Shown here piece by piece: positions 28,407 to 41,451 of a stretch of DNA of 64,000 bases. Every line of letters starts with the position of its first letter. The stretch's first letter is position 1. Below the pieces are notes generated by a model. The model saw nothing but the letters and a program-made list of their open reading frames with translations. It did not search any database and was not told the DNA's origin. A program made the position numbers and the translations under genes. Source of the DNA: a virus; IMG/VR virus record IMGVR_UViG_3300036770_003657, positions 186,001-250,000 of that record; one strand, 5' to 3'.

Positions 28407-28730
28407 ATGAAAAAAGTCATTGCTAGTTTACTCGTTGCTTATTCCAGTGCCAGTTTAGCCTATTTGGGCACTTGGAATGATCCCTTGAAGCCATTTGATG
28501 CTACAAAAAATGATATCAGCAAAATGAGCATAACTTGGAAAATTACTGATGATGTAGTTGGCGAATGTAATAAGGCAAATAGGGCTATGGGATTTACCAA
28601 ACCATTAGGTCCTTTGACTGCCTGTAGTTTTTGGAAATTTGATACTTGTACCATTATCACCAGTAAAACTCCTACCATGCATGAAGTTGGGCATGAGCTT
28701 AGGCATTGCTACCAAGGAAATTGGCATTAA
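28407..28730 (+). CDS. Secreted protein with HExxH zinc-protease-like motif
   Basis: 107 residues and the only plus-strand gene between 5.4 and 48 kb. A signal peptide is clear (MKKVIASLLVAYSSASLA, cleavage near residue 18). The C-terminus holds HEVGHELRHC (H92, E93, H96, H100), an HExxH motif with a further His as in gluzincin/metzincin-type sites, but the protein ends seven residues later, so a full peptidase fold is doubtful. Four other cysteines could form disulfides in the periplasm. It resembles small host-type secreted proteins, so it may be a captured bacterial gene. Its perfect sigma-70 promoter suggests early expression. Confidence 0.75.
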   Translation: MKKVIASLLVAYSSASLAYLGTWNDPLKPFDATKNDISKMSITWKITDDVVGECNKANRAMGFTKPLGPLTACSFWKFDTCTIITSKTPTMHEVGHELRHCYQGNWH

Positions 28731-28751: not shown

Positions 28752-29744
28752 CTACGATTTTGCTGGTCTTGGTGCTGATTTAGCACCACTATCACCGCCA
28801 GGGTTAGGAATTCCGCCATTACCTCTTAATTTAGTATGTCTCAGAAGTAATTTATCAACATCTGGATTGCGGCCCATATGCTTGCCTAATTTATCTGCTA
28901 ATAAGGCTAATTCTTGTTCTTCTTCTGGGCTTAATCCACCTGCACCTGCTGCGGCAGGATTAGCAGCAATACCACCTGGTTTACCACCTGGTTTACCACC
29001 TGGAGTATTAGTGCTACCATCTGGACGTGCTCCGTAAAGTGCTAGGCCCCCTGCTGCTGCTAGGGCTGCTGCCGACTTAGCAACATTGTTATTAGATGGA
29101 GTTCTGCCTGTTGGAATCTGTTTGATTAGTTCATCAGCACTTGGTTCTACTTTAGATGTTGCGGCACGACCTATATCATCTGCACTTGAAGCTGCTCCTT
29201 TGAGCCCTGCTTGAGCACTGTATCTAGCTAGAAGGTCATCCAAACCTTGTTTTCCTATATTTGTTACTGTTGGAAATACTTCTGCTCCAATAGCTGCCGC
29301 TTTAGGTGCAAATTGTTCATCTATCTGTGCTAGTTTAGTTCTAATTGCCTTAATTTGATCTACACTATTCATATTAAAATCTTCTTTGACATCTTTTTTT
29401 GTCTGGTTATCTTTATACCATTGTTGTATATCTCTACCAACGTTGGCGGCATCTCCCATGCCACCAAGCGTCCAACCTCCAGGACCAGGAATAAGATATC
29501 CTGCTGCGGCTAATGCTGAAATGACTGCACCGGTTCTATCACCTTTTTGAAACCTATCCCAAGCGTTCTTTAGTGCTAGACCACTGCCTAATCCTGGAAC
29601 CATTTTAGCTAATTGTTTTGTTCCTAGTTCTTTACCAACCACTGCCATACCAGCTGCACCTGCACCTGCATCTTTAGCCAAGTCTAATGCCCCGTAGCCA
29701 GTATCATCTTCTACTAAAGAAATATAATTTTTTATGCTTTTCAT
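28752..29744 (-). CDS. Putative head-packaged protein, Ala/Gly-rich
   Basis: 330 residues. The N-terminus MKSIKNYISLVEDD resembles the T4 capsid-targeting sequence and offers an LVE site for prohead-protease cleavage. It then alternates hydrophobic Gly/Ala segments (GAGAAGMAVVGKEL, AVISALAAAGYLIPGPGG, SAAALAAAGGLALYG) with acidic helices, and ends in Pro/Gly-rich repeats (PGGKPGGKPGG). Such segments might insert in membranes during DNA entry. It is last in a run of similar genes. No homologue is recognised; virion protein is inferred. Confidence 0.6.
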   Translation of the reverse strand: MKSIKNYISLVEDDTGYGALDLAKDAGAGAAGMAVVGKELGTKQLAKMVPGLGSGLALKNAWDRFQKGDRTGAVISALAAAGYLIPGPGGWTLGGMGDAANVGRDIQQWYKDNQTKKDVKEDFNMNSVDQIKAIRTKLAQIDEQFAPKAAAIGAEVFPTVTNIGKQGLDDLLARYSAQAGLKGAASSADDIGRAATSKVEPSADELIKQIPTGRTPSNNNVAKSAAALAAAGGLALYGARPDGSTNTPGGKPGGKPGGIAANPAAAGAGGLSPEEEQELALLADKLGKHMGRNPDVDKLLLRHTKLRGNGGIPNPGGDSGAKSAPRPAKS

Positions 29745-31069
29745 ATTTTAAAGGCCCTAATTCTATCTAATATTATATCATCGGCTAGGCGATCTACTGA
29801 TTCCTTTTGTGCCTGAGCTGGTGCTGCTGGACTTGCTGCTTGACCGTCTTCTGGAAATGGTTTAAATGTGTACGATCTTCCTGTACGTTCCCAATATCCC
29901 ATTTTTCCAGTTCTTCGATCTCTCGCAGCAGGTTCTCCGTTTGGTCCTTTTTGTGGTGCCGTTGCTGGTGCCGCCGGTGCTGCTGGTGCTGCTGGTGCTG
30001 CTGGCGGCATAGTACCTTGCATGACATGTGGACTAGTTGCTGCCCCAGGAGGTGGATTAGCTGCTCCTCCACCACTCATACCTCTGGCAATTTTGTCCAT
30101 AGTGTCACCTGCTTTTACTACATAAGTACCACCACCTGGCATTTTTAATTGTTGACCAGGATATATTTTATTAATATCTTTGATTTGTGGATTTAATTTA
30201 TGTATGGCCTGTGCCCCTGCACTGCCCTTATATCCTTGTGCAGCAGGTTTATTAGTCTGTTGACTCGCAGGTGGATTAGCAGCACCTCCTGCACCTTTTT
30301 CTAATTTATCTAATAGTTCACCAAATCTTTTTACATCGTTAGGATCAATAGTTCCTGGATCTTCCTCACCTTGATTATTAGTTGATCCAGGAACTTCAGC
30401 AGCAGACGGAGGATTAGTAGCAATACCACCTGGTTCTTGCCAATTAGCTAAATCAGTTCCAGGATTACCTGGTTGTATGTCTGGACTGCGTACTGGATGT
30501 GATGTTGCTACAGGAGCATTGCTACCAGCGTATCCATAATTTTCTGGATCTTCACCACCACCTGCGTCTGCATCGTCAGCCCCTATAGTAGTTGGTGGAA
30601 CATATTCACCTGGATTGGCAGCTATACCTTGATGTTCTTGTCCACCACTCATCACAGGTTGTCCATCACTACTTCTAACTATTTGTCCATCGCTACCACG
30701 TAATGGTTCACGTCGAATATTTGGTGGTTGTGTTTCTCCATCTTCATCTACTCCCATATCCTGCATAAGAGCTTTGGCGATACTACCTCTAAATTCTGGC
30801 ATTGGTGTAGTTTGACTTTGTTTAGCTACCATTCTATAGTCAGGGTGTACTTGAGCTAGACTTTTTTCTGCATCAGCAGCAGCTTGACTAAATCCTTGAG
30901 CTCTTAATTTTTTAATATGTGCTAACCAAGCAGCCACTTTAGCAGCAGCAGTGCCACCCACAAATTCATCTACTTGACCATCTAACGCCATTGGACTAGC
31001 ATCTTCTTTTAGAACTTTTTTACTTTCAATAGCATCCATACGTGCTATCATTGATTTCATATCCATCAT
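29741..31069 (-). CDS. Pro/Ala-rich protein with permuted LysM-like segment
   Basis: 442 residues, mostly low complexity: Pro/Gly/Asn-rich stretches and a PAAPAAPAAP run. A LysM-like sequence lies around residues 285-340, but in the wrong order: the C-terminal half (LNPQIKDINKIYPGQQLKMP) comes before the N-terminal half (YVVKAGDTMDKIARG). The N-terminus MDMKSMIARMDAIESK contains helix-like sequence and a VLKED site. LysM binds peptidoglycan, so this could be a virion protein acting at the cell wall. Overlaps the next gene by 4 bp. Confidence 0.6.
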   Translation of the reverse strand: MMDMKSMIARMDAIESKKVLKEDASPMALDGQVDEFVGGTAAAKVAAWLAHIKKLRAQGFSQAAADAEKSLAQVHPDYRMVAKQSQTTPMPEFRGSIAKALMQDMGVDEDGETQPPNIRREPLRGSDGQIVRSSDGQPVMSGGQEHQGIAANPGEYVPPTTIGADDADAGGGEDPENYGYAGSNAPVATSHPVRSPDIQPGNPGTDLANWQEPGGIATNPPSAAEVPGSTNNQGEEDPGTIDPNDVKRFGELLDKLEKGAGGAANPPASQQTNKPAAQGYKGSAGAQAIHKLNPQIKDINKIYPGQQLKMPGGGTYVVKAGDTMDKIARGMSGGGAANPPPGAATSPHVMQGTMPPAAPAAPAAPAAPATAPQKGPNGEPAARDRRTGKMGYWERTGRSYTFKPFPEDGQAASPAAPAQAQKESVDRLADDIILDRIRAFKI

Positions 31070-33061
31070 TTAATCCTTGTCTGATCCATCAGCCTTTTTA
31101 TGACTCTTATAGCCTTTGTTTTTCATATGCCAGGCCAATGCCCATGGGTTCTTTTCCTTACCATCTTTAGTTTTACCCTTGGTTAGTTCAGGATGTTTTT
31201 TCATAGCCTTTACCGTGCCCTTAAAACCAGGTGGGCTTACTTCTTTAAGGCCAAAACTCTGTAGTATACCTTCACTAATGCTTTCCATCTTAACACAATT
31301 GTCTACAGTTTTGCCACCTTTCTTTTTAGTGCCCATACGCTTATAGCCTTTCCAGCAGGCTTTACCGTCTACACCTTTTTGTTTTTCTTCCGCCACACCT
31401 TGCTCTTTGATCTTGTCTTGAATCTTTTTGTAGCGATGAAAGTTAGCATCTTTATCAGCATCAGTCTTGCCAAACTTACCAGCGTCCATCTTCTTATCAA
31501 TTTCACGCTTGGCATATCCTGGAACAACCTTGCGTAGAGTCTGTGGCAAGCCTTCCGCCACACCTTGCTCTGGCAAATTAGGTTTACGATGTTTTCCATG
31601 TGCATTTTTAATACTGGCTTTCAGACTGTTTATCTGGTCTCTGGATGGGAGACCTTTTCTATTGCCAGCAAGATTAAGGCTATGTTTGATGCCGCTACGA
31701 CCAATGCCCTGCCCCTTTTTCAATAGATCATCGTTATCGAATTCACTGCCTACACCACCCATCCTGCGCTTTTGACCCGGATCGTTTTCTGGACGCTCAG
31801 GAAAATCGTAGCCGTACCCAATGCTGTCATAATCGTCGCTATCCCCGGGCTCTTGAGTATACAATCTGTCTTTGTATTTAGGATCACGCCATTTGGCCGC
31901 TTCCGCCACACCTTGCTCTTTGATGTTTAGTTGCTTTTTTGTATAGGCCACTGCGTCATCCAATGCGGCCAACCCTTTCTGTTCTGAATTCTTACTTAAT
32001 CCAGTATCATATAGTTCATCACCGTTATAGATACGCACCTGCCAGCCCATTCCTGTATCAACCAAATCGTGTCTAAAGTTGCCCACCTTGACAGATTTTA
32101 CTACATTCTTTCCCAAGCCTTCCGCCACAGCCTTCTTTTCATCCTTTTTCTTCTCAGGCTTAACAGGTTTAGCCACATCCTTATCACTTACTGGATAGTC
32201 TCTTAAATGACGAGTAGTAGCATTAGGTTTTTTCACAGCCTCTCTAAGCATTTGAATAAGTTTTGGTAGTGATTTACCTTTAAAACTAGCAGACGTTAGA
32301 TCTGGATATTTGTCTAACAAACGATTAATAGTCTGTTGTCTCATTTTATTACTAAAGTCTTGATCATTTGGACCGTCTCTATCTATACGATCTGTACGTG
32401 GCATACGACCACTTTGACTAAATTGATCATCTCTATTACGACCAAACCTACTCTCTGCTGCGCCACCTACCAGTTTACCTTTAGGATAACCTGTTGGTCC
32501 TGGACTACGTAATTGTCCAGCCTGTCCAATTTTGTGTTTACCTAAACCAGCAAAAGGTATACTATTTTCATCTAAGTTTTTACCTTTATGTTTTTCTTTA
32601 CCCTGCTTTTGATCTTTCTTTTTGTCTTTATGTTTGCCTGCTCCAGTTTGTGGACGTAATGGACCTTGTCTTGGCTTTTGCGGCACACGAGCATCTTCCA
32701 TCATACGTTGTACAATACTACGAACTTGTTCTGTACTCTCATAAGATTCTTGTGATGGTAAAGGAGCAGGTGGACGTGGTCGTTGTCTTGGACTAATACT
32801 ATCTAGTGCTTTCTTTGTAGCAGGCCCAATTTGATCAGCACCTACATAGTCAGTCATCTCTCTGCCACCAGTTACGGTGACTATTTGATAAGCATCAGGT
32901 ATTTTTTGACTGATTAAGATCATTTTATTACTTTGCTGATCTAGTACGCCAGCCATACCGTTATAACGTATGTTAGCAAAGCCATCACCCAACTGGCCTA
33001 TTATTTGCATATTAGGGATGTCAGCCTGCTCAACTAGTTGGATGAAGTTTTTAATAGTCAT
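31070..33061 (-). CDS. Modular basic protein with EQGVAEG repeats, putative head-packaged protein
   Basis: 663 residues, strongly basic and charged. The N-terminus MTIKNFIQLVEQAD fits the capsid-targeting pattern with an LVE site. Further on, unrelated segments are joined by a repeated linker (KKAVAEG, KEQGVAEA, PEQGVAEG, KEQGVAEE) coded by a near-identical GC-rich DNA repeat. Other modules include a WQVRIYNGDELYDTG segment, a CWKGYKRMGTKKKGG block with two cysteines and a C-terminal NPWALAWHMKNKGY block. The function is unknown. The layout suggests cassette assembly of short domains. Confidence 0.6.
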   Translation of the reverse strand: MTIKNFIQLVEQADIPNMQIIGQLGDGFANIRYNGMAGVLDQQSNKMILISQKIPDAYQIVTVTGGREMTDYVGADQIGPATKKALDSISPRQRPRPPAPLPSQESYESTEQVRSIVQRMMEDARVPQKPRQGPLRPQTGAGKHKDKKKDQKQGKEKHKGKNLDENSIPFAGLGKHKIGQAGQLRSPGPTGYPKGKLVGGAAESRFGRNRDDQFSQSGRMPRTDRIDRDGPNDQDFSNKMRQQTINRLLDKYPDLTSASFKGKSLPKLIQMLREAVKKPNATTRHLRDYPVSDKDVAKPVKPEKKKDEKKAVAEGLGKNVVKSVKVGNFRHDLVDTGMGWQVRIYNGDELYDTGLSKNSEQKGLAALDDAVAYTKKQLNIKEQGVAEAAKWRDPKYKDRLYTQEPGDSDDYDSIGYGYDFPERPENDPGQKRRMGGVGSEFDNDDLLKKGQGIGRSGIKHSLNLAGNRKGLPSRDQINSLKASIKNAHGKHRKPNLPEQGVAEGLPQTLRKVVPGYAKREIDKKMDAGKFGKTDADKDANFHRYKKIQDKIKEQGVAEEKQKGVDGKACWKGYKRMGTKKKGGKTVDNCVKMESISEGILQSFGLKEVSPPGFKGTVKAMKKHPELTKGKTKDGKEKNPWALAWHMKNKGYKSHKKADGSDKD
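31388..31406. repeat. GVAEG-encoding interspersed repeat, copy 1
   Basis: TTCCGCCACACCTTGCTCT, 19 bp, identical to copies at 31553 and 31901. It codes on the minus strand for the EQGVAE linker and is more GC-rich than the surrounding gene. Confidence 0.85.
31553..31571. repeat. GVAEG-encoding interspersed repeat, copy 2
   Basis: Identical 19-bp core. It lies between two unrelated protein modules of the same gene. Confidence 0.85.
31901..31919. repeat. GVAEG-encoding interspersed repeat, copy 3
   Basis: Identical 19-bp core, with a further TTGAT shared with copy 1. A partial copy (TTCCGCCACA, 32120-32129) codes the VAEG of KKAVAEG. Confidence 0.85.
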
Positions 33062-34272
33062 TATGCTACCGCTTTCTTCTTTTTAGCAATGGCAATAGCA
33101 GCTTGTTGTTTAGCATTTGCTGCTTCTGTTTTCAAACGACCATCTCGCTCAGCACTCTTTAACAGAGCTGCTCGATCTCCATAACTGCCACGCTTAACAT
33201 CCCTAGCAGCATCCTTTTCACCCTTTGTTGGATTCTTTACGTGCTTCAAAGGATTAAATGCTTCTTTCATACTACACTCTTTCATACCGTGTACTGGACA
33301 ACTTTTACCTTTGGCTGTATGATTACACTTGGCTGATTCGCTAACTTTTTTATCCTTCACAGCCTTCTTCATTGGCTCTTTTTTATTGCCATCCTTGTCC
33401 ATATCTAAAAAGTCTGGTTTAGCCTTTTTACCTTCTTCAAATGGCTTACCTGACTTGGCTGCTGCCTTAGCACGACTGCCCCATACTTCATCTTTAGGAC
33501 TTTCTTTCTTGCCATCACCATCATAATCTTTTTTACTTACTTTCTGACCTTCTCTGGTTTTTACATTTTTGCCTGGAGGTGGAGCAGTAGCACCATCTGG
33601 AGGACTTGGAATATTACCAGTTACACCACCTTTAGGATATAGTTTATTAGTGGGCTTTGGTTGTGCCATTGTATTTTCACTAGTTTTCTTACGTATGCTA
33701 TCTACACTGTAGCCTTGACTCTTATGATCACGACCTGCACGATCTCTTACTTCGCTTTCGCTTTCACCTTCATCTGCATCATAGTGTACATTTTTAGATT
33801 TATTGCCATCTTTGTGCATGAGTTTTACGCTGTACTGACTCTTAGTACTAGTATCAACTTTGCCCTTACGCTTGTCCTTAGCAGTAAAGCCAGTAGCCTC
33901 ATCTACCTTTTCATCCTTTTTCTTCATCTTTTCAGCCTGGGCCTTTTTAAGGGCTTTCATTTTGTCCTTGGCTTCCATTAGTTTGTTTCTAAGGATACGT
34001 TTTTCTTCGGTAGTGTACATATCACTCATTTCAAGTTTTTGTCCATATTCATTGAACTTCATCTCATACTCTAAATAGTGATATACGCTAGCCATATAGT
34101 CTGCTGCTTTAGTAATTTTAGCCTGTATCCACCCTTCTAGTTGGGCATTATCATCCATCATTTTAAATAGTTTTAATGCGTATCTAGCAGTTTTATAAAG
34201 GTCAGCCTTGGCCATTTTACCTTCATCTTCATTCTCTGGGGCGGGCAAACTGCCCTGCATAATAGGATCCAT
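33061..34272 (-). CDS. Lys-rich modular virion-type protein
   Basis: 403 residues. The N-terminal third (LYKTARYALKLFKMMDD, GWIQAKITKAADYMASVYHYLEYEM) is a helical domain I associate with proteins of T4-like aquatic phages. The rest is low-complexity and basic, with two DxDxDG-like loops (DYDGDGKKES, DMDKDGNKKEP) that resemble calcium-binding repeats and a Cys/His segment (CNHTAKGKSCPVHG). It lacks the targeting-like N-terminus of its neighbours. A late-type box and a GGAG ribosome site precede it. Confidence 0.65.
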   Translation of the reverse strand: MDPIMQGSLPAPENEDEGKMAKADLYKTARYALKLFKMMDDNAQLEGWIQAKITKAADYMASVYHYLEYEMKFNEYGQKLEMSDMYTTEEKRILRNKLMEAKDKMKALKKAQAEKMKKKDEKVDEATGFTAKDKRKGKVDTSTKSQYSVKLMHKDGNKSKNVHYDADEGESESEVRDRAGRDHKSQGYSVDSIRKKTSENTMAQPKPTNKLYPKGGVTGNIPSPPDGATAPPPGKNVKTREGQKVSKKDYDGDGKKESPKDEVWGSRAKAAAKSGKPFEEGKKAKPDFLDMDKDGNKKEPMKKAVKDKKVSESAKCNHTAKGKSCPVHGMKECSMKEAFNPLKHVKNPTKGEKDAARDVKRGSYGDRAALLKSAERDGRLKTEAANAKQQAAIAIAKKKKAVA

Positions 34273-34292
34273 ATCTTACTCCGAATTTGTAA

Positions 34293-34300
34293 TATTTATC
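34293..34300 (-). promoter_or_regulatory. T4-late-type promoter box
   Basis: GATAAATA on the minus strand, 20 bp upstream of the ATG at 34272 and overlapping the 3' end of the preceding small gene. GGAG follows at ribosome-site spacing. Confidence 0.65.
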
Positions 34301-34502
34301 GTTTTAACATTGTTCCGCCAAATAAGCTAATATCACTATCTAGTGCATTTTTGGCTGTTCCATTTTTATTTTTTAATGTTTCTACTTTAACTAACTTTGG
34401 TTTTCCGCCTTTATTAGTTATATGTGGGTTGGCTATGGCAACTACATTACCAGCACTGGTGGCTCCTCCGCTTGCTGTTTCATACAGTTCCCTTAGTCTC
34501 AT
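34296..34502 (-). CDS. Small protein with capsid-targeting-like N-terminus
   Basis: 68 residues. MRLRELYETASGG gives the shared basic start and an LYE site near residue 8. The remainder is Lys/Asn/Gly-rich (NKGGKPKLVKVETLKNKNG) with no motif. Cleavage at the LxE would release a basic peptide of about 60 residues. Its ATG follows the preceding gene's stop directly (34503). Function unknown; head-packaged DNA-binding protein is a guess. Confidence 0.6.
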   Translation of the reverse strand: MRLRELYETASGGATSAGNVVAIANPHITNKGGKPKLVKVETLKNKNGTAKNALDSDISLFGGTMLKR

Positions 34503-34880
34503 TTATACTCCATATTGATTACGTTTGATTTTTGCTACAGGGCTTACTGTATTTGTGCTTTTCAGTTCTAAGCTACGCATATCACCTTTGTTTAAATCTT
34601 TGTGATTTGCACCTACAGCTTTACTGGCTTTAACAAACATTTCATGTTCTACTTCTGTATAAGGATGTATAGTTTTCTTTTTACCAAACCAACTCTTGGC
34701 ATCTATATCAGGAACACTTTTTCCATCAGTACTGGCCATAGCTTGTCCTAACTTAAAAGCCACGTAGTCGCTATTGGCTCTTTCTGCGTCACTGTAAATG
34801 CTTACACCGCGTGTAGACTCTTTTTGACGTTTAGTCAATTTGCCTTGTTTACGCTCTGCCAGTATTTCTCTAATCTTCAT
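34503..34880 (-). CDS. Conserved phage protein with capsid-targeting-like N-terminus
   Basis: 125 residues. It begins MKIREILAERKQ, with an LAE site. The remainder (DSAERANSDYVAFKLG-type segment, WFGKKKTIHPYTEVEHEMFVKASKAVG, then TNTVSPVAKIKRNQYG) is a pattern I recall from conserved T4-like aquatic phage proteins. It is basic and might contact packaged DNA. Overlaps the nucleotidyltransferase start region by 4 bp. Confidence 0.65.
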   Translation of the reverse strand: MKIREILAERKQGKLTKRQKESTRGVSIYSDAERANSDYVAFKLGQAMASTDGKSVPDIDAKSWFGKKKTIHPYTEVEHEMFVKASKAVGANHKDLNKGDMRSLELKSTNTVSPVAKIKRNQYGV

Positions 34881-36238
34881 TGCTTGAACATATCCTTAGA
34901 TCCAAATACTTGGCCAAACTTATCACCTAACATATTCTTTAACTTAGTACGTTGATCCGCTCTAAGTACAATCATACCATTATCAAACTTGTAGCCCATG
35001 TCACGTAATTTGGGCATTAGGTCAGTAGCCAACAATTTGTACCTAAATACATCTGGTTGTGCCACAGCATGACCACCCATTTGGCTATTTGGTTTACCAG
35101 GTATGGGCGCACGACGTCGTTTACCATCTAGACCAACGACAAAATGATCTACACCTTTAGGTTTAGTTTCTGGTTCTACCCCAGCATCTTTACCTTTATA
35201 CAGTTTAAAGCGTTCATCAGCACCACCACCTATAAGGCTTTTTAATTCCTTTAGTTCAGGTCCAAAGTCACTGCGTAGAGCACTTAGAGGGAATACAAGT
35301 TCAGCAGCCTCGCCACCAATAAAGTCCACGTCACGTATAGCATCTTCTAATTCACCAAGAGCACTGCTGGCATCAGTAAATTCAAAGTTCACTCTAAGTG
35401 GACGACCTTTGCCACCCTTCTTATCTCTAATGCCTACATTTTGACTACGCTGTACAACTTCTTCTGGGAATGTAGCAAAGTCACCTATAACCTGTATTAG
35501 ATTAGTTCTTGGGTTTAGTTTGAATATAATGTATAGTGTGCCACTAGGCTGTTCTAATTCATATAGTCTCATTTCTTTAGCCTTCTTTTTTGGTTTAGCA
35601 GCAGCGAATTGTCCCATACGCTCCTTGGCCTTACGCATAAGATCCATAACTTGATCATCATCTATTTCTGGACTCATAGCATCACGCCATACTGCAAATT
35701 GTTCTTGTTCACTCTTAGTGGGATCTGTTAATACTTGACGCATTGGTGTAGCACGTGGGCCTTCTTCACCAGCACTAGGGTCACCTGTTTCTTGACGGGC
35801 TATAACGTCCAAGTTATCAAACTTAAATGGAATATCACCTGCCTTATTAGGTTTACCGTTATATTGTTTAAGATATTGGAATGCCTGTTTTTGATCAGCA
35901 CCAACAACCACTGTGACGTTGTTATAACCTTGTTGATTTAGGTTAGTCAATACTCTAGTTAGATCAGGCAGTTCATCTGTGGCAGTTTGAAATATATGCC
36001 CTTGTTCTGGGAATACCTTTTTGTATATGGCCAATTTTTCTTCAGGTTGTAAAGGATCATCTGGACCATATGTTCTACTCACTACAAAATATGGATCACC
36101 GCCCATCTTGTCAGCATAGGTTATAACACTACTGGCCAACATCATATGACCTTTATGACCCATACCTCTGCCCCAACCTACCACAGCAGTTGATCCTTCT
36201 CCTGTTCTATCTAGTTCAAATAATTGTCTAAGCCTCAT
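34877..36238 (-). CDS. HxGH-type nucleotidyltransferase fused to unknown domain
   Basis: 453 residues from MRLRQLFELD at 36238, whose ATG overlaps the upstream stop (ATGA); an ATG 7 codons earlier is less likely. After an LFE cleavage-type site comes a cytidylyltransferase-like fold: VVGWGRGMGHKGH with HKGH at residues 28-31, and later VTVVVGADQKQAF. Such folds transfer nucleotidyl groups (NadR, CoaD and relatives). The second half (IIFKLNPRTNLIQVIGDFA) is an unknown alpha/beta region. Its targeting-like start suggests delivery inside the head. Substrate unknown. Confidence 0.7.
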   Translation of the reverse strand: MRLRQLFELDRTGEGSTAVVGWGRGMGHKGHMMLASSVITYADKMGGDPYFVVSRTYGPDDPLQPEEKLAIYKKVFPEQGHIFQTATDELPDLTRVLTNLNQQGYNNVTVVVGADQKQAFQYLKQYNGKPNKAGDIPFKFDNLDVIARQETGDPSAGEEGPRATPMRQVLTDPTKSEQEQFAVWRDAMSPEIDDDQVMDLMRKAKERMGQFAAAKPKKKAKEMRLYELEQPSGTLYIIFKLNPRTNLIQVIGDFATFPEEVVQRSQNVGIRDKKGGKGRPLRVNFEFTDASSALGELEDAIRDVDFIGGEAAELVFPLSALRSDFGPELKELKSLIGGGADERFKLYKGKDAGVEPETKPKGVDHFVVGLDGKRRRAPIPGKPNSQMGGHAVAQPDVFRYKLLATDLMPKLRDMGYKFDNGMIVLRADQRTKLKNMLGDKFGQVFGSKDMFKQ

Positions 36239-38115
36239 TCGCCTTTCCTTGGAGCCCAATTAGCTTGGTCAATTGCTTTGACAAATTGTCCAGGTAAATC
36301 ATTTTGAAATGCTACACCAGGATGAGCACTAACATATCCTTCTGGTTTTGTCTGTCTTATACCATTGTGTGTTCCACTGCTTAGGTTTTGAATCATTTCC
36401 AGTTTAGCTCTAGTTAGTAATTCTACAGCAGTTAATACAGCATCCATACCAGCACGATCTTTAAGTATCATATCTGCTTGTTTAGAGCTGGTATTAGCAG
36501 TGACCCAATCAATAAATTTTTGTTTAACTCCTGGAATACGTAGGTTTTGATTATAAAATTTGTACAATACATCACCTGGTTTACTTAGTCCAGGCTTAGG
36601 AGCTAGGAAGTTGTTGATTAGATTGGCATTTTCCTGTATATATGATTGAACACTATCTAAACTATTTTCTGTAAATTGTGGAGTTTGTTCAGTATACGTT
36701 GTACCCTGCACTATGGTATATGGGGTGCTCAAGCTTTCTGGGTCTGGATAACGTCCTTCATCACTGCTGCCCAAACTTTCATAAAACCCTGTAGCAGCCA
36801 CCATAACTTTGGCATTGCGAATCTTACGACCAAGATCACTATTTTTTCCTATATGGAATGTAGTAATATTTGGAGTGAACTCATACTCTTGCGTTTTTGG
36901 ATTAAGTATTGGTTTGGCACTTTGTCCATCTGGTTTAGTACCTGGATAAAATAATAATCCACCTTCTAAGAATCCATCATCTGGACTGGCCTGTTCAAAG
37001 AAGGGCCAAAGGCTGGCTAATTGTTTGGCATATTGACGTCGTTGTGCTATTTGATCAGGATCAGCTTTACCCGTACCCATTAGGAACTTTTGTACTTCTT
37101 CTGCACTGCGGGGTATGGTGCTTATGCCATTTTGTAACTCTGTCTTACCACGTTTAAGATATTCCCAAGCATTTTTAGGAATCATCATAAACTGTCCATC
37201 CTGTTTGCCCCAATATACTACAGGGCTACCATCCCATTTAAGTTCTATATTACCACCTTGTGTGCTCATATAACGAAGTCGTTCTACAGCATGTAGTCCG
37301 CCCTTGGCACCATTAGTAAAAACTAGATCTTCAATATGTTGATATTTGCGACCTATTGTTGGTGCTGCTGCTTCGAAAAACTTCTTCTCAGGTCCTTTTA
37401 ATGGCGCACTTTTCCAACTTTGTCCACTACTAGCCAAGCTATAAATTTTTTCACGTTGCGTTATAGGTAGTGCATTCATTATACTTTCTACACTGCCTAA
37501 ATCCTGACTACTTGCTCTTGGACCCAATAATTTCTGTGCTATCTCATCCATATCAGTTGATATAAGGTTAGCCTTTTTACCTTTATCGTCTCTAGCAAAT
37601 AACCCTTCATCTGGACTCCATAGCATACCTTGACTGCTAGCAAGAGCATTCATAACCATCTGTTTGTGTACACCTTTATAAGGACTATCTTTTGGTATGC
37701 TATGAACATGGTACCTATGTACCTGTTGTGCATTGGGCACAACTTTTATATCTACCTGATGAAAACTGCGTCCGAATGGTAGTTTAACATGGACCTGTGT
37801 ACCACTTTTTTTAGTATCAAGACCTTTACCTTGTAGGAATCGTTCTAACTCTACTCTAACACCTTTTGCATCTTGTTGTTGAAATACTTTAGCAGCTACA
37901 TTAGCATCTGCCATAACATCAAGATCACCACTCATAACACCTGGTGTAGGTGTTGCTCCACTGCCTATACGATATAGTTTAATGCCTGTACCCTGTAGGT
38001 AGCGTTCCAATTCTGTTTCTAACCTAGGTGCAAGACTTTGGTCAAATGGTTCAACATCGTCCCAAATATTGCCACCTTCCTTAAGTGGCCTAGCAAATAG
38101 CTCACGAAGGATCAT
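36235..38115 (-). CDS. Pol-beta-type nucleotidyltransferase with KxDG ligase-like motif
   Basis: 626 residues. The start MILRELFARPLKEGG has an LKE site. An N-terminal nucleotidyltransferase pattern follows: RIGSG (50-53), SGDLDVM with D64 and D66, and a third Asp at D122 (HQVDIKV). Further on, ELKWDGSPVVYWG gives K293-W-D-G296, which looks like motif I of the DNA/RNA ligase superfamily. A protein with both signatures is uncommon. Whether both sites are active cannot be told here. It lies next to the HxGH protein with a 4-bp overlap, so the two may cooperate. Confidence 0.65.
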   Translation of the reverse strand: MILRELFARPLKEGGNIWDDVEPFDQSLAPRLETELERYLQGTGIKLYRIGSGATPTPGVMSGDLDVMADANVAAKVFQQQDAKGVRVELERFLQGKGLDTKKSGTQVHVKLPFGRSFHQVDIKVVPNAQQVHRYHVHSIPKDSPYKGVHKQMVMNALASSQGMLWSPDEGLFARDDKGKKANLISTDMDEIAQKLLGPRASSQDLGSVESIMNALPITQREKIYSLASSGQSWKSAPLKGPEKKFFEAAAPTIGRKYQHIEDLVFTNGAKGGLHAVERLRYMSTQGGNIELKWDGSPVVYWGKQDGQFMMIPKNAWEYLKRGKTELQNGISTIPRSAEEVQKFLMGTGKADPDQIAQRRQYAKQLASLWPFFEQASPDDGFLEGGLLFYPGTKPDGQSAKPILNPKTQEYEFTPNITTFHIGKNSDLGRKIRNAKVMVAATGFYESLGSSDEGRYPDPESLSTPYTIVQGTTYTEQTPQFTENSLDSVQSYIQENANLINNFLAPKPGLSKPGDVLYKFYNQNLRIPGVKQKFIDWVTANTSSKQADMILKDRAGMDAVLTAVELLTRAKLEMIQNLSSGTHNGIRQTKPEGYVSAHPGVAFQNDLPGQFVKAIDQANWAPRKGE

Positions 38116-38498
38116 TTATATAAACCATCCTTAATATTTTGTATTTCAGTTTCGTAGATATGATGTGCTACTTGCTCTTTAAAATCTTCTTCTAAATTAT
38201 CATCTAGTTCTCTTACTGGAAATTCTTTTTTATATTCATCGTAGGCTTTTTCGATAACTTTTTTAAACACTCTGTGGCTAAATTCTCCACCACTTTCATA
38301 TTGAGCTTTACAGGTTTTTAGTATAGGAAAAAAGTGACGACGATAAAAGTCATCATTGTGATGCATGAAAAATACAAGATCTTCTGCTAGATCAAATTCA
38401 TATTTTCCTTGATCATCCTTAATAATTTTACTGGGACCAGTGTTTAACATGTCCTCAATGGGCATTTCCTTATTCCCAAACATTTCAAATAGTTTCAT
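38112..38498 (-). CDS. Conserved phage protein, helical
   Basis: 128 residues from MKLFEMFGNKEMP; an in-frame ATG at 38516 would add MIRLGD. The short start gives MKLFEMF with an LFE site, fitting the neighbouring genes. The body is helical and acidic (YEFDLAEDLVFFMHHNDDFYRRHFF, VFKKVIEKAYDEYKKEF). No enzyme motif. It heads the block and follows a late-type box. Confidence 0.6.
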   Translation of the reverse strand: MKLFEMFGNKEMPIEDMLNTGPSKIIKDDQGKYEFDLAEDLVFFMHHNDDFYRRHFFPILKTCKAQYESGGEFSHRVFKKVIEKAYDEYKKEFPVRELDDNLEEDFKEQVAHHIYETEIQNIKDGLYK

Positions 38499-38579: not shown

Positions 38580-39227
38580 CTATTTTTCGCTGATGACTCG
38601 ATCTATACGCTGTATATTTGAGCCAATAAACATCTGTACCATGCTCAAACTTTTGGCATCTTTAACATAAAAGTAACTGTCACCTACTCTGTAACCACGC
38701 TTTACGTGGCGTTGACAGCGTTCTGGCATACGAATTTTGTCATTATCCCTACACCAATTAAAAAAGCTTTCATTATTATCTATACGATTACTAATGGTCA
38801 CTTTATAGTCATAGTTAATACGTTTGAGATATATTGTATTCTTTTCTAAAACTGGAGTAGTTTCAGAAGGGATACTAATATATTTAATTTGATTTTTAAG
38901 ATTTTTGCTAACTGAATAAAAATCATCGTAGCTATCTGTGTAATAACTTACAAAAGGGCTACTGACCATTACTTTGTATTCGTGGCCAGCAGTCTGAAAA
39001 GTTCTTGCTATTAATAATGATATATCATAATCTGACTTCTCTCCACTCCAAATATAGGGAGGAAATTTATCTACACTTTTCCAATATAATATTTTACTAA
39101 CAATTAATTCCATATCCTTATTCCTAAACATAGGCGCAAATTTAGTTACAAGAACTATTTTGTACCTATATTTGTCTAGGAATAGTTTATTGGTTCTCTT
39201 CGTGGGTAACAATGTTAGGTGATTCAT
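38580..39227 (-). CDS. Conserved phage protein of unknown function
   Basis: 215 residues, basic and Tyr/Ser-rich, with mixed alpha/beta segments (KIVLVTKFAPMF, YKVMVSSPFVSYYTDSYDDF, RHVKRGYRVGDSYFYVKD). It overlaps the clpA 3' end by 41 bp, so translation is probably coupled. No motif is recognised. Its position between clpA and the head block leaves its role open. Confidence 0.65.
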   Translation of the reverse strand: MNHLTLLPTKRTNKLFLDKYRYKIVLVTKFAPMFRNKDMELIVSKILYWKSVDKFPPYIWSGEKSDYDISLLIARTFQTAGHEYKVMVSSPFVSYYTDSYDDFYSVSKNLKNQIKYISIPSETTPVLEKNTIYLKRINYDYKVTISNRIDNNESFFNWCRDNDKIRMPERCQRHVKRGYRVGDSYFYVKDAKSLSMVQMFIGSNIQRIDRVISEK

Positions 39228-41451
39228 TTTCAGTTACTTTACTAGTTCTTACACGTTTTGTCACGGTGATTTGGTCATTTTCCAAACCAATTACTGCCGA
39301 ACCACCATCCTTAAGTTCACCAAACAGCATCATACGGCTTAGGGGACGTTTAATCTCCTTGTCTATAACACGTTGTAGTGGACGGGCACCCATTTTACTA
39401 TCAAACCCCTTTTCAATCAAGTTATTTATAGCAGCATCGTTAATACGTATGCGAATGCCCTTGTCTGATACTTGTCGTTTAAGTTCATCAATAAACTTAA
39501 CAACAACCTTATACATTGTATCTTTATTCAACTTGGTAAATGTGATTATGGCATCCAAACGATTTCTAAACTCAGGAGCAAAGAATTTCTTTAGATCCTT
39601 GTCATCATAGTCTTTTTCCTGCTTACCAAAACCAATTTGATTCTTTTCAGCAGCTTGGGCACCAGCATTAGTAGTAAGGATTAGGATAATGTTTCTACAA
39701 TCTGCTTTCTTACCATTGCTACCAGTTACAAACCCATTGTCCATCATCTGTAATAGTATTGTACTAACATCTGGATGACTCTTTTCTACTTCGTCAAAAA
39801 GTAACACACAGTATGGATTTTCTTGTAATTGAGTGATAAGTAATCCTGCATTTTCCTCAAAGCCAACATATCCTGGAGGAGATCCAATCAACTTGCTCAC
39901 GCTGTGCTTTTCTTGATACTCACTCATATCAAAGCGTATAAGTTTTACACCAAGATGTTTGGCTAATGTTTTAGCTGTTTCTGTTTTACCACAACCAGTT
40001 GGCCCCATAAAAACAAATGATCCAATAGGCTTGTTTTCAGGCTTAAGACCAGCACGAGCGACTAGTATTTTATCTACAAGTTCTGTAACAGCATCATTCT
40101 GCCCAAATACTTCATCATTGATTTGCTTTTCAAGATTAGCCAAGTTATTGCTCTCTGTTTCAGCAATTTGTTCTTCAGGCATTTGAATAGCCTGACTTAG
40201 CTCAAATTGAATTTCGTGTTCACCAATAATACGTTCCTGATCTAATTTAAGATTAAATCTACTACAGGCACAATCAATAAGATCAATTGCTTTATCAGGC
40301 AACTTTTTCTCTGTTTGATACTTTATGCTAAGTTTTACAGCAGCTTGAATAGCATCATCTGTAATTTTAACTTTATGGAACTGCTCGTAGTATTTTTTAA
40401 CACCTTTAAGGATTTGAATAGTTACGTCGTATGTTGGTTCATCCACCGTGATACGTTGGAACCTACGCATTAGAGCACGATCTTTTTCAAAGTACTTGCG
40501 ATATTCCTCCCAAGTTGTACTGGCCACTACTTTGATATTACCCTTGCTTAGAGCAGGTTTCATCATGTTAGCAAGGTCATTAGCACTATTACCTGCACTG
40601 CCTGCTCCGCTGATCATATGAGCTTCATCAATAAACAATATTGTTTTACCCTTGGTCTGTAGGCCTTTGAGCACTAGTTTAAAACGTTCTTCAAAATCTC
40701 CACGATATTTACTACCAGCTAACATGCTGCTAATATCCAAACTATAAACCTTGTAATCCTTTAAAAACTCCGGTACATGACCTTTTTCAATATTAAAAGC
40801 CAGTCCTTCTGCAATAGCAGTTTTACCAACACCTGGATCACCGACAAGCATAACATTATTTTTATTGCGACGTCCCATGGCTAAGGCAATATTTTCCAAT
40901 TCTGTCACTCTGCCTACCACTGGATCAACTTTATTACGTTTGACAAGATCATTCAAATTTGTAGTAAATGCTTTTATGGCACGATCTACTTGATGATCAG
41001 TGACTTCTTCTTCTTCAGTTTGTACTTCACTATTGAGATAATCTGCAAACTTATTCTTATCTACCCCAGCCTGTTGAATATAATAACTGGCATAGCTACG
41101 CTTCTCACTCATAATGCTTAGGAACACGTCACTAAGTTCCATAGTTTGTCGGCCATTAAATAGGGCCTGTGTAAATGCACGATTCAATACACGCTCTACT
41201 GCCTGTGTCTTTTTTGGTTTAGTGGCTTCTTCTTTAATAATATCATCAAGTTTATTCTTTAAGTAGTGCTCTAAATTCTTTTTAATGTATTCTGAATCAG
41301 CGCCATATGTTTGTATAGTATTAACAAAATGCTCTTCACCTAACATTGAGTATAATAAATGTTCTAATGTTAAGTATTCATGTTTATAGTTTTTAGCTAG
41401 TTCGATGGCCTGTTCAAAAACTTTTTTAAGATTGTCGCTGGGCTCTACCAT
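39187..41451 (-). CDS. clpA: ClpA-like AAA+ unfoldase
   Basis: 754 residues, near E. coli ClpA (758). An N-terminal Clp repeat domain (LTLEHLLYSMLG, MELSDVFLSIMSE) precedes D1 with GDPGVGKT and ILFIDEAH and D2 with GPTGCGKT and VLLFDEVE, followed by the D2-small domain (GARPLQRVIDKEI). It could feed substrates to host ClpP or act alone. It overlaps the deformylase gene by 26 bp. Phage ClpA is rare enough to be of note. Confidence 0.92.
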   Translation of the reverse strand: MVEPSDNLKKVFEQAIELAKNYKHEYLTLEHLLYSMLGEEHFVNTIQTYGADSEYIKKNLEHYLKNKLDDIIKEEATKPKKTQAVERVLNRAFTQALFNGRQTMELSDVFLSIMSEKRSYASYYIQQAGVDKNKFADYLNSEVQTEEEEVTDHQVDRAIKAFTTNLNDLVKRNKVDPVVGRVTELENIALAMGRRNKNNVMLVGDPGVGKTAIAEGLAFNIEKGHVPEFLKDYKVYSLDISSMLAGSKYRGDFEERFKLVLKGLQTKGKTILFIDEAHMISGAGSAGNSANDLANMMKPALSKGNIKVVASTTWEEYRKYFEKDRALMRRFQRITVDEPTYDVTIQILKGVKKYYEQFHKVKITDDAIQAAVKLSIKYQTEKKLPDKAIDLIDCACSRFNLKLDQERIIGEHEIQFELSQAIQMPEEQIAETESNNLANLEKQINDEVFGQNDAVTELVDKILVARAGLKPENKPIGSFVFMGPTGCGKTETAKTLAKHLGVKLIRFDMSEYQEKHSVSKLIGSPPGYVGFEENAGLLITQLQENPYCVLLFDEVEKSHPDVSTILLQMMDNGFVTGSNGKKADCRNIILILTTNAGAQAAEKNQIGFGKQEKDYDDKDLKKFFAPEFRNRLDAIITFTKLNKDTMYKVVVKFIDELKRQVSDKGIRIRINDAAINNLIEKGFDSKMGARPLQRVIDKEIKRPLSRMMLFGELKDGGSAVIGLENDQITVTKRVRTSKVTENESPNIVTHEENQ

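Follow-up and report, generated by a model that had tools for sequence, protein, structure and literature searches.

The nine-gene block and its N-terminal leaders

We analysed a window of 64,000 nucleotides (bases 186001-250000 of a 399,796-bp virus record), in which nine closely spaced ORFs on the minus strand occupy positions 28752-38498; they are referred to here as p1 (28752-29744) to p9 (38112-38498). All nine genes, with the N-termini quoted for them in an earlier sequence-only reading of this DNA, were recovered. A strict form of leader opens the products of p5-p9: they start M-x-[LI]-x-[EQ]-[LIF]-x and have (L/I)-x-E in roughly the first 13 residues. In p1 and p3 the leader is looser, of the kind seen in T4 internal proteins, in p2 it is longer, and p4 is without a leader. 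The leaders measure 5-13 residues in p1, p3 and p5-p9 and 22 residues in p2. The features are as follows (a slash marks a predicted cut).

38484-38498 (-): leader of p9 (128 aa, beginning MKLFEMF), MKLFE, the shortest of the set
38077-38115 (-): leader of p8, MILRELFARPLKE, with the predicted cut before GGNIW (from the motif in relatives and the structural model)
36235-38115 (-): p8, 626 aa, with a Pol X/pol beta-like domain at about residues 21-230 and DUF6267 at about residues 250-626
37372-37386 (-): internal KKFFE/AAAP of p8, ancestral gene junction and predicted internal cut (conserved Glu)
36215-36238 (-): leader of p7 (34877-36238, 453 aa, beginning MRLRQLFELD), MRLRQLFE
35552-35572 (-): internal MRLYELE of p7, before QPSGTLYII (sequence reading, few relatives)
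34854-34880 (-): leader of p6 (34503-34880, 125 aa, basic, beginning MKIREILAER), MKIREILAE; relatives have, for example, MRAKEFIDE and MKILELITE
34479-34502 (-): leader of p5 (34296-34502, 68 aa, beginning MRLRELYETA), MRLRELYE (profile and relatives)
34443-34478 (-): p5 residues after the predicted cut, TASGGATSAGNV, matching the expected N-terminus of the mature capsid protein
33061-34272 (-): p4, 403 aa, basic modular protein beginning MDPIMQGSLPAP, leaderless, profile score at background
33029-33061 (-): leader of p3 (31070-33061, 663 aa, beginning MTIKNFIQLVEQ), MTIKNFIQLVE; relatives have MSIKDFIQLVE and MDMKKYITLLE
31385-31915 (-): stretch of p3 with three IKE/LPE-QGVAE seams (31901-31915, 31550-31570 and 31385-31405; from the sequence)
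31004-31069 (-): long leader of p2 (29741-31069, beginning MMDMKSMIARMDAIESKKVLKED), MMDMKSMIARMDAIESKKVLKE, a weak fit read from the sequence
29709-29744 (-): leader of p1 (330 aa, beginning MKSIKNYISLVED), MKSIKNYISLVE, like T4 MKTYQEFIAE/A class by class, a likeness without profile support

The bodies behind the leaders were said to be unrelated, and the block proteins do differ in their Pfam and PHROG matches and in their folds. Of the two nucleotidyltransferases announced, p7 is of the HxGH type (phrog_3041 cytidyltransferase, E = 6e-22; HKGH at residues 28-31) and p8 has a predicted Pol X-like fold; the LysM protein is p2 (PF01476, E = 4e-6), and the basic modular proteins are p3 and p4. 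The starts at 31069 and 34272 had been singled out as poor fits, and rightly so: in p2 an LKE comes as late as residues 20-22, and p4 is leaderless. Genes at the p2 position elsewhere read MSMKNLIAQMDAIEQGKKFIAE/S and MNIRDLLDKIDTLSE/A. Because p2 has a LysM domain and the gene at the p1 position in a relative encodes a peptidoglycan-binding domain, some members of the block may work in the cell envelope while the phage enters. Relatives of p9 begin, for example, MKIFELF, MRIKELLEG or MKIIELFED; for p5, no match was found in named phages. The neighbours of the block are genes for DNA polymerase and ClpA, not head genes. On the opposite strand, at 28407-28730 (+), lies a small ORF with a signal-peptide-like start and an HEVGH (HExxH) motif near its end; a Pfam search with it gave no match, and similar-looking ORFs occupy the same place in two further contigs (L012 and L038).

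Statistics of the leader

The gene sample for the statistics comprised the window and 157 kb of further stretches, i.e. 221 kb of genome with 265 genes. A loose T4-style rule, which asks for Lys or Arg at one of residues 2-6 and for an [LI]xE that ends between residues 5 and 16, was passed by 6/9 block genes and by 34/256 others in the 221 kb (Fisher p = 5e-4); with the start of p3 set to 33061, the block count rose to 7/9 (p = 4e-5). We also used a position weight matrix over residues 2-8, trained only on relatives of p6-p9 from 80 viral contigs. The top seven of the 265 genes were p7, p5, p9, the gene directly after the portal gene (the post-portal gene), p8, a gene of 299 aa close to those for the tail, and p6. 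When the family concerned was held out, the number of non-block genes scoring as high was 0 for p5, 2 for p6, 1 for p7, 0 for p8 and 4 for p9, with p5 the best-scoring held-out gene; p1-p4 fail the strict profile. In the control phage CBB (564 ORFs, 356 kb), no gene exceeded the profile threshold of 6, and in Phosso a single gene scored above 9. The sequence-only reading had proposed an N-terminal profile search across related phages; this search, with a profile trained without head genes, placed the post-portal gene of Atu_ph07 (MKLTELFNPLTE/SYY) first of 675 ORFs.

As a measure of conservation, we counted distinct N-termini with [LI]xE in residues 2-16 in each family of relatives and compared them with shuffles and with other genes. 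The motif is present in 42/42 relatives of p8 (shuffles, 11.6), 44/48 of p9 (12.2), 35/39 of p7 (8.5), 25/34 of p6 (6.5) and 7/7 of p5 (1.4), i.e. in 73-100% of the p5-p9 families compared with ~20-28% of shuffles and 22% of other genes. The peptide LREL is written by 26 different codings, and selection therefore acts on the peptide rather than the DNA; for the same reason, a DNA-level repeat was rejected as the source of the similarity between leaders.

The earlier description of the leaders as a T4-like, MKTYQEFI-type signature holds for the short leader with (L/I)-x-E but not for the leader class, as T4 ipI, ipII and ipIII score only -0.7 to -0.1 with the profile. By eye, p1 and p3 alone resemble the MKTYQEFI leader of T4, and the leader of most members, M-x-[LI]-x-E-[LIF], is closer in sequence to the N-termini of head-core and scaffold proteins. 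Since the leaders of p5-p9 lack homology to MKTYQEFI, p5-p9 would work like T4 internal proteins without being members of that family; on sequence grounds, they are like T4 internal proteins in every feature tested except leader homology. The block had also been read as encoding a set of packaged proteins. A set of leaders is indeed present in it, but at least seven more leader-bearing candidates lie elsewhere in the genome, where the proteins with leader-like starts include a protein-kinase-like one (phrog_15752), a GNAT-like one and one with DUF6321. We also noted a small cluster of leader-like starts at L089:17024-18377 (MRLKEFVDFVQ, MKIDEIITESG and MKIYEILNEDW); one of them belongs to a peptidoglycan-binding tail lysozyme, another to a DUF6321 protein.

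The head cluster, its protease and the capsid-like junction

The search for a gp21-like protease, likewise suggested in the sequence-only reading, identified one (PF03420, E = 3.5e-26) among portal, core, scaffold and capsid genes. The head cluster follows the T4 order, namely portal, an 80-aa gene, an acidic core protein, the S77 protease, scaffold and the major capsid protein, the last of which is 65-70% identical to its counterparts in Phosso, Vibrio phage 2.275.O and the 121Q group. The 80-aa post-portal gene begins MILRELF (MILRELFYLNPE); gp67 of T4 likewise has 80 aa and the same position. The equivalent gene in 121Q begins MLKDIFE/SSS, and scaffold proteins begin MLDVLKGLFE/NN, MSKLEKLLKE/SS and MNQGLKELLE/SA.

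The capsid protein (L082:18329-19507) is expected to be matured at KYLAE/TASAGTTSAGNVATLN, and its Phosso counterpart at PLME/TATAGATSAGNVATLN. The predicted junctions of p5 and the major capsid protein, E/TASGGATSAGNV and E/TASAGTTSAGNV, are nearly alike: p5 reads MRLRELYE/TASGGATSAGNVVAIAN and its relatives E/TASAGATSAGNV, and in some p3-type relatives the leader ends in YVLE/TATSGATSAGVV or YVLE/TATSGATSAG. Comparison of the p5 and p3-type junctions with those of the capsid protein thus points to sequence common to the putative cargo and the shell around the site where the cut is predicted.

p8 and p7 as putative fused precursors

In the relatives of p8, 29/29 distinct leaders of 5-21 residues, ranging from MILLE/GGN to MLLRELFVNLPNKKIINE/GGN, put (L/I)-x-E directly before (G)GGN. 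The position of the predicted cut is kept although the leaders differ in length and in the residues around the site. The structural model of p8 has residues 1-14 disordered, as well as residues 231-258. The part between them (residues 21-230) matches human Pol lambda in Foldseek (E = 3e-6, prob 1.00), and the Pol X-type motifs (GS, DxD...D) are present, with SGDLDVM and QVDIK conserved in the consensus; by fold and motifs, the N-terminal domain is a predicted Pol X (pol beta-like) nucleotidyltransferase. The second half matches DUF6267 (PF19782, E = 3.5e-14), of which a literature search found no mention. Its KWDG is invariant and resembles ligase motif I (KxDG), and the best PDB matches of the modelled domain are RNA and DNA ligases; because these matches are weak (E = 0.013, prob 0.41), we treat the ligase identity as a lead and not as a result.

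In many relatives, DUF6267 is a separate gene with its own leader (MKIRELIIE/AAAA, MRLRELFE/AAAP or MRAREFLFE/AAAP), which ends at the same place as the p8 junction. The fused p8 keeps the Glu, KKFFE/AAAPTIGRKYQHIED, inside a disordered stretch of the model. The Glu is kept in 43/43 distinct DUF6267 junctions, and P3 is Leu, Ile, Val or Phe in the fused forms read. A standalone leader in relatives, together with a junction Glu in a disordered stretch, is the pattern expected of a precursor with an internal processing site. p8 is probably a precursor from which two cuts release a nucleotidyltransferase of the Pol X-like kind and a DUF6267 protein resembling ligases. The internal MRLYELE of p7 looks like a second leader fused within the gene, and p7 may be a second case of such a precursor.

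GVAE seams and exchangeable modules

The DNA word GGTGTGGCGGAA reads in frame as GVAE in 67/67 cases, which include the p3 seams in the window, a site at L087:15363 and many relatives. Its codons GTG and GCG are rare here (13% of Val and 6% of Ala), yet they are used in GGTGTGGCGGAA. The word lies at the seams of exchangeable modules, where six left modules have several right partners and eight right modules several left ones; within the sample of the phage's own genome, GVAE codings of this type occur in two proteins only, both with leader-like starts. In a p7-type protein (L054:2482-4167), a GVAE seam carries an inserted module with the look of a twin-arginine signal (SRRGFLRGASALAVGSALAGGARA). 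We suggest, as a tentative and rather doubtful extension, a mix-and-match cargo in which cassettes of leader and body would fuse into precursors bounded internally by prohead-protease sites, GGTGTGGCGGAA would mark the exchange seams, and new combinations would be packaged and released as individual proteins.

Proposed packaging and delivery of the block proteins

We infer that the block proteins are docked, cut, packaged and delivered, and put a probability of roughly 0.8 on the reading that the block encodes cargo of the phage head. The short N-terminal leader would dock each protein into the scaffold core of the prohead, the gp21-type S77 protease encoded in the genome would cut after (L/I)-x-E and so free the mature protein inside the head, and the mature proteins would probably be ejected from the head with the DNA. 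This reading is supported by the leaders themselves and the conservation of their cut motif, by the gene for the protease, by the occurrence of the leader on a head-core gene and by the capsid-like junction.

The alternative that survives best, unlikely as we consider it, is that the leader serves for docking to a complex inside the cell, for instance the replication machinery, with the proteins left unpackaged and LxE being part of a helix rather than a cut site. This would suit the position of the block between DNA polymerase and ClpA, and the cyanophages P-HM1 and S-PM2 have their DUF6267 and cytidyltransferase homologues in the replication module. However, these very homologues have no leader, and a docking peptide of this kind would have to account for the leader on the post-portal head gene, for the capsid-like junction in p5 and for a cut position that is kept while the leader length varies from 5 to 21 residues. 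Given the genomic neighbours of the block, and the leaderless enzymes of P-HM1 and S-PM2 compared with the MYNDLLVE/D and MKTLKELL starts in HTVC008M, certain lineages may have turned old replication-linked enzymes into cargo; alternatively, the leader may have a role inside the cell.

It is very unlikely that the ClpA-like ATPase encoded next to the block reads the leader as a tag for degradation or regulation. The ClpA-like gene (39187-41451) does adjoin the block, in this phage and in relatives, but a tag leaves unexplained why Glu is invariant where the body begins, why head-core genes have the leader and why a second copy stands at the fusion points; moreover, Rak2-like phages such as Escherichia phage UE-S1 have ClpA, and CBB of that group is without the leader. 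Chance likeness of a common N-terminal composition (Met-Lys/Arg-hydrophobic) with no shared function could draw on the share of other genes with [LI]xE and on the failure of p1-p4 in the strict profile, but is strongly disfavoured by the held-out ranking, the CBB control, the junctions conserved in 29/29 and 43/43 cases and the selection on the peptide.

If packaging into the head is the right reading, one short motif would serve to list the proteins that a large group of environmental jumbo phages carry into the cell and to predict their cut sites. The predicted cargo (Pol X-like and HxGH nucleotidyltransferases and a ligase-like protein, with kinase-like and GNAT-like proteins elsewhere in the genome) points to a role in nucleic acid repair or in taking over the host at the onset of infection. 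That the cargo is specifically an injected set for nucleic-acid repair or modification plus host-takeover enzymes is the view we favour, conceivable if on balance somewhat improbable. The comparable proteins of T4 are anti-restriction factors and an ADP-ribosyltransferase.

Comparison with known systems

IPI, IPII and IPIII of T4 also have a short leader ending in (L/I)-x-E (MKTYQEFIAE/A in the T4 record), unrelated bodies and a gp21-type protease. In IPIII, the first 10 residues suffice for packaging, with residues 4 and 7 involved in targeting and residues 8 and 10 in processing (PMC9026906); the T-even internal proteins have only the leader in common (PMC3012670; PMC12373910), and many of them were found in genomes by it (PMC12373910). 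The T4 proteins differ in being small and in their leader class, whereas p5-p9 have M-x-[LI]-x-E-[LIF] and the block includes large enzymes and putative fused precursors. Alt of T4 is a packaged ADP-ribosyltransferase with a cleaved leader of 7 residues (PMC9026906), which compares with leaders of down to 5 residues in the relatives of p8; the block enzymes, in contrast, are predicted nucleotidyltransferases, and no Alt homologue was found in the block. The ejection proteins of SPN3US and phiKZ are head proteins of giant phages that an S77-type protease cuts after x-x-E (PMC5694885). Their propeptides are mostly >100 residues long, and the named SPN3US sites are AxE (PMC5694885), whereas here we find 5-22 residues and (L/I)xE.

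The Rak2/121Q-like jumbo phages (121Q, CBB, Atu_ph07 and Phosso) have the same head gene order as the phage studied here, and Atu_ph07 and 121Q also have the leader on the post-portal gene. Unlike the block, CBB, for which proteomics identified 55 virion proteins, has no comparable cargo leaders, and tblastn found no homologues of p7 and p8 in this group. In Atu_ph07, mass spectrometry of virions detected 29 of the 46 products of CDS 31-76, a figure for the cluster as a whole (PMC6102473). This cluster includes gp53-gp62 (L155:39484-49507), ten tandem paralogues that start with M[RK]W[EHQDN]QL[TNI]E followed by a YRGM-type motif; the two paralogues examined both match phrog_11975. We do not claim them as ADP-ribosyltransferases on the strength of the YRGM motif, as Pfam and PDB gave no match. 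In a literature search, we found neither leaders of this type described for Rak2-like phages nor any account of nucleotidyltransferase cargo or fused precursors. The principle itself is that of T4; what is new is its extension to jumbo phages of the Rak2/121Q type, to predicted nucleotidyltransferase cargo and to polyproteins that are likely processed.
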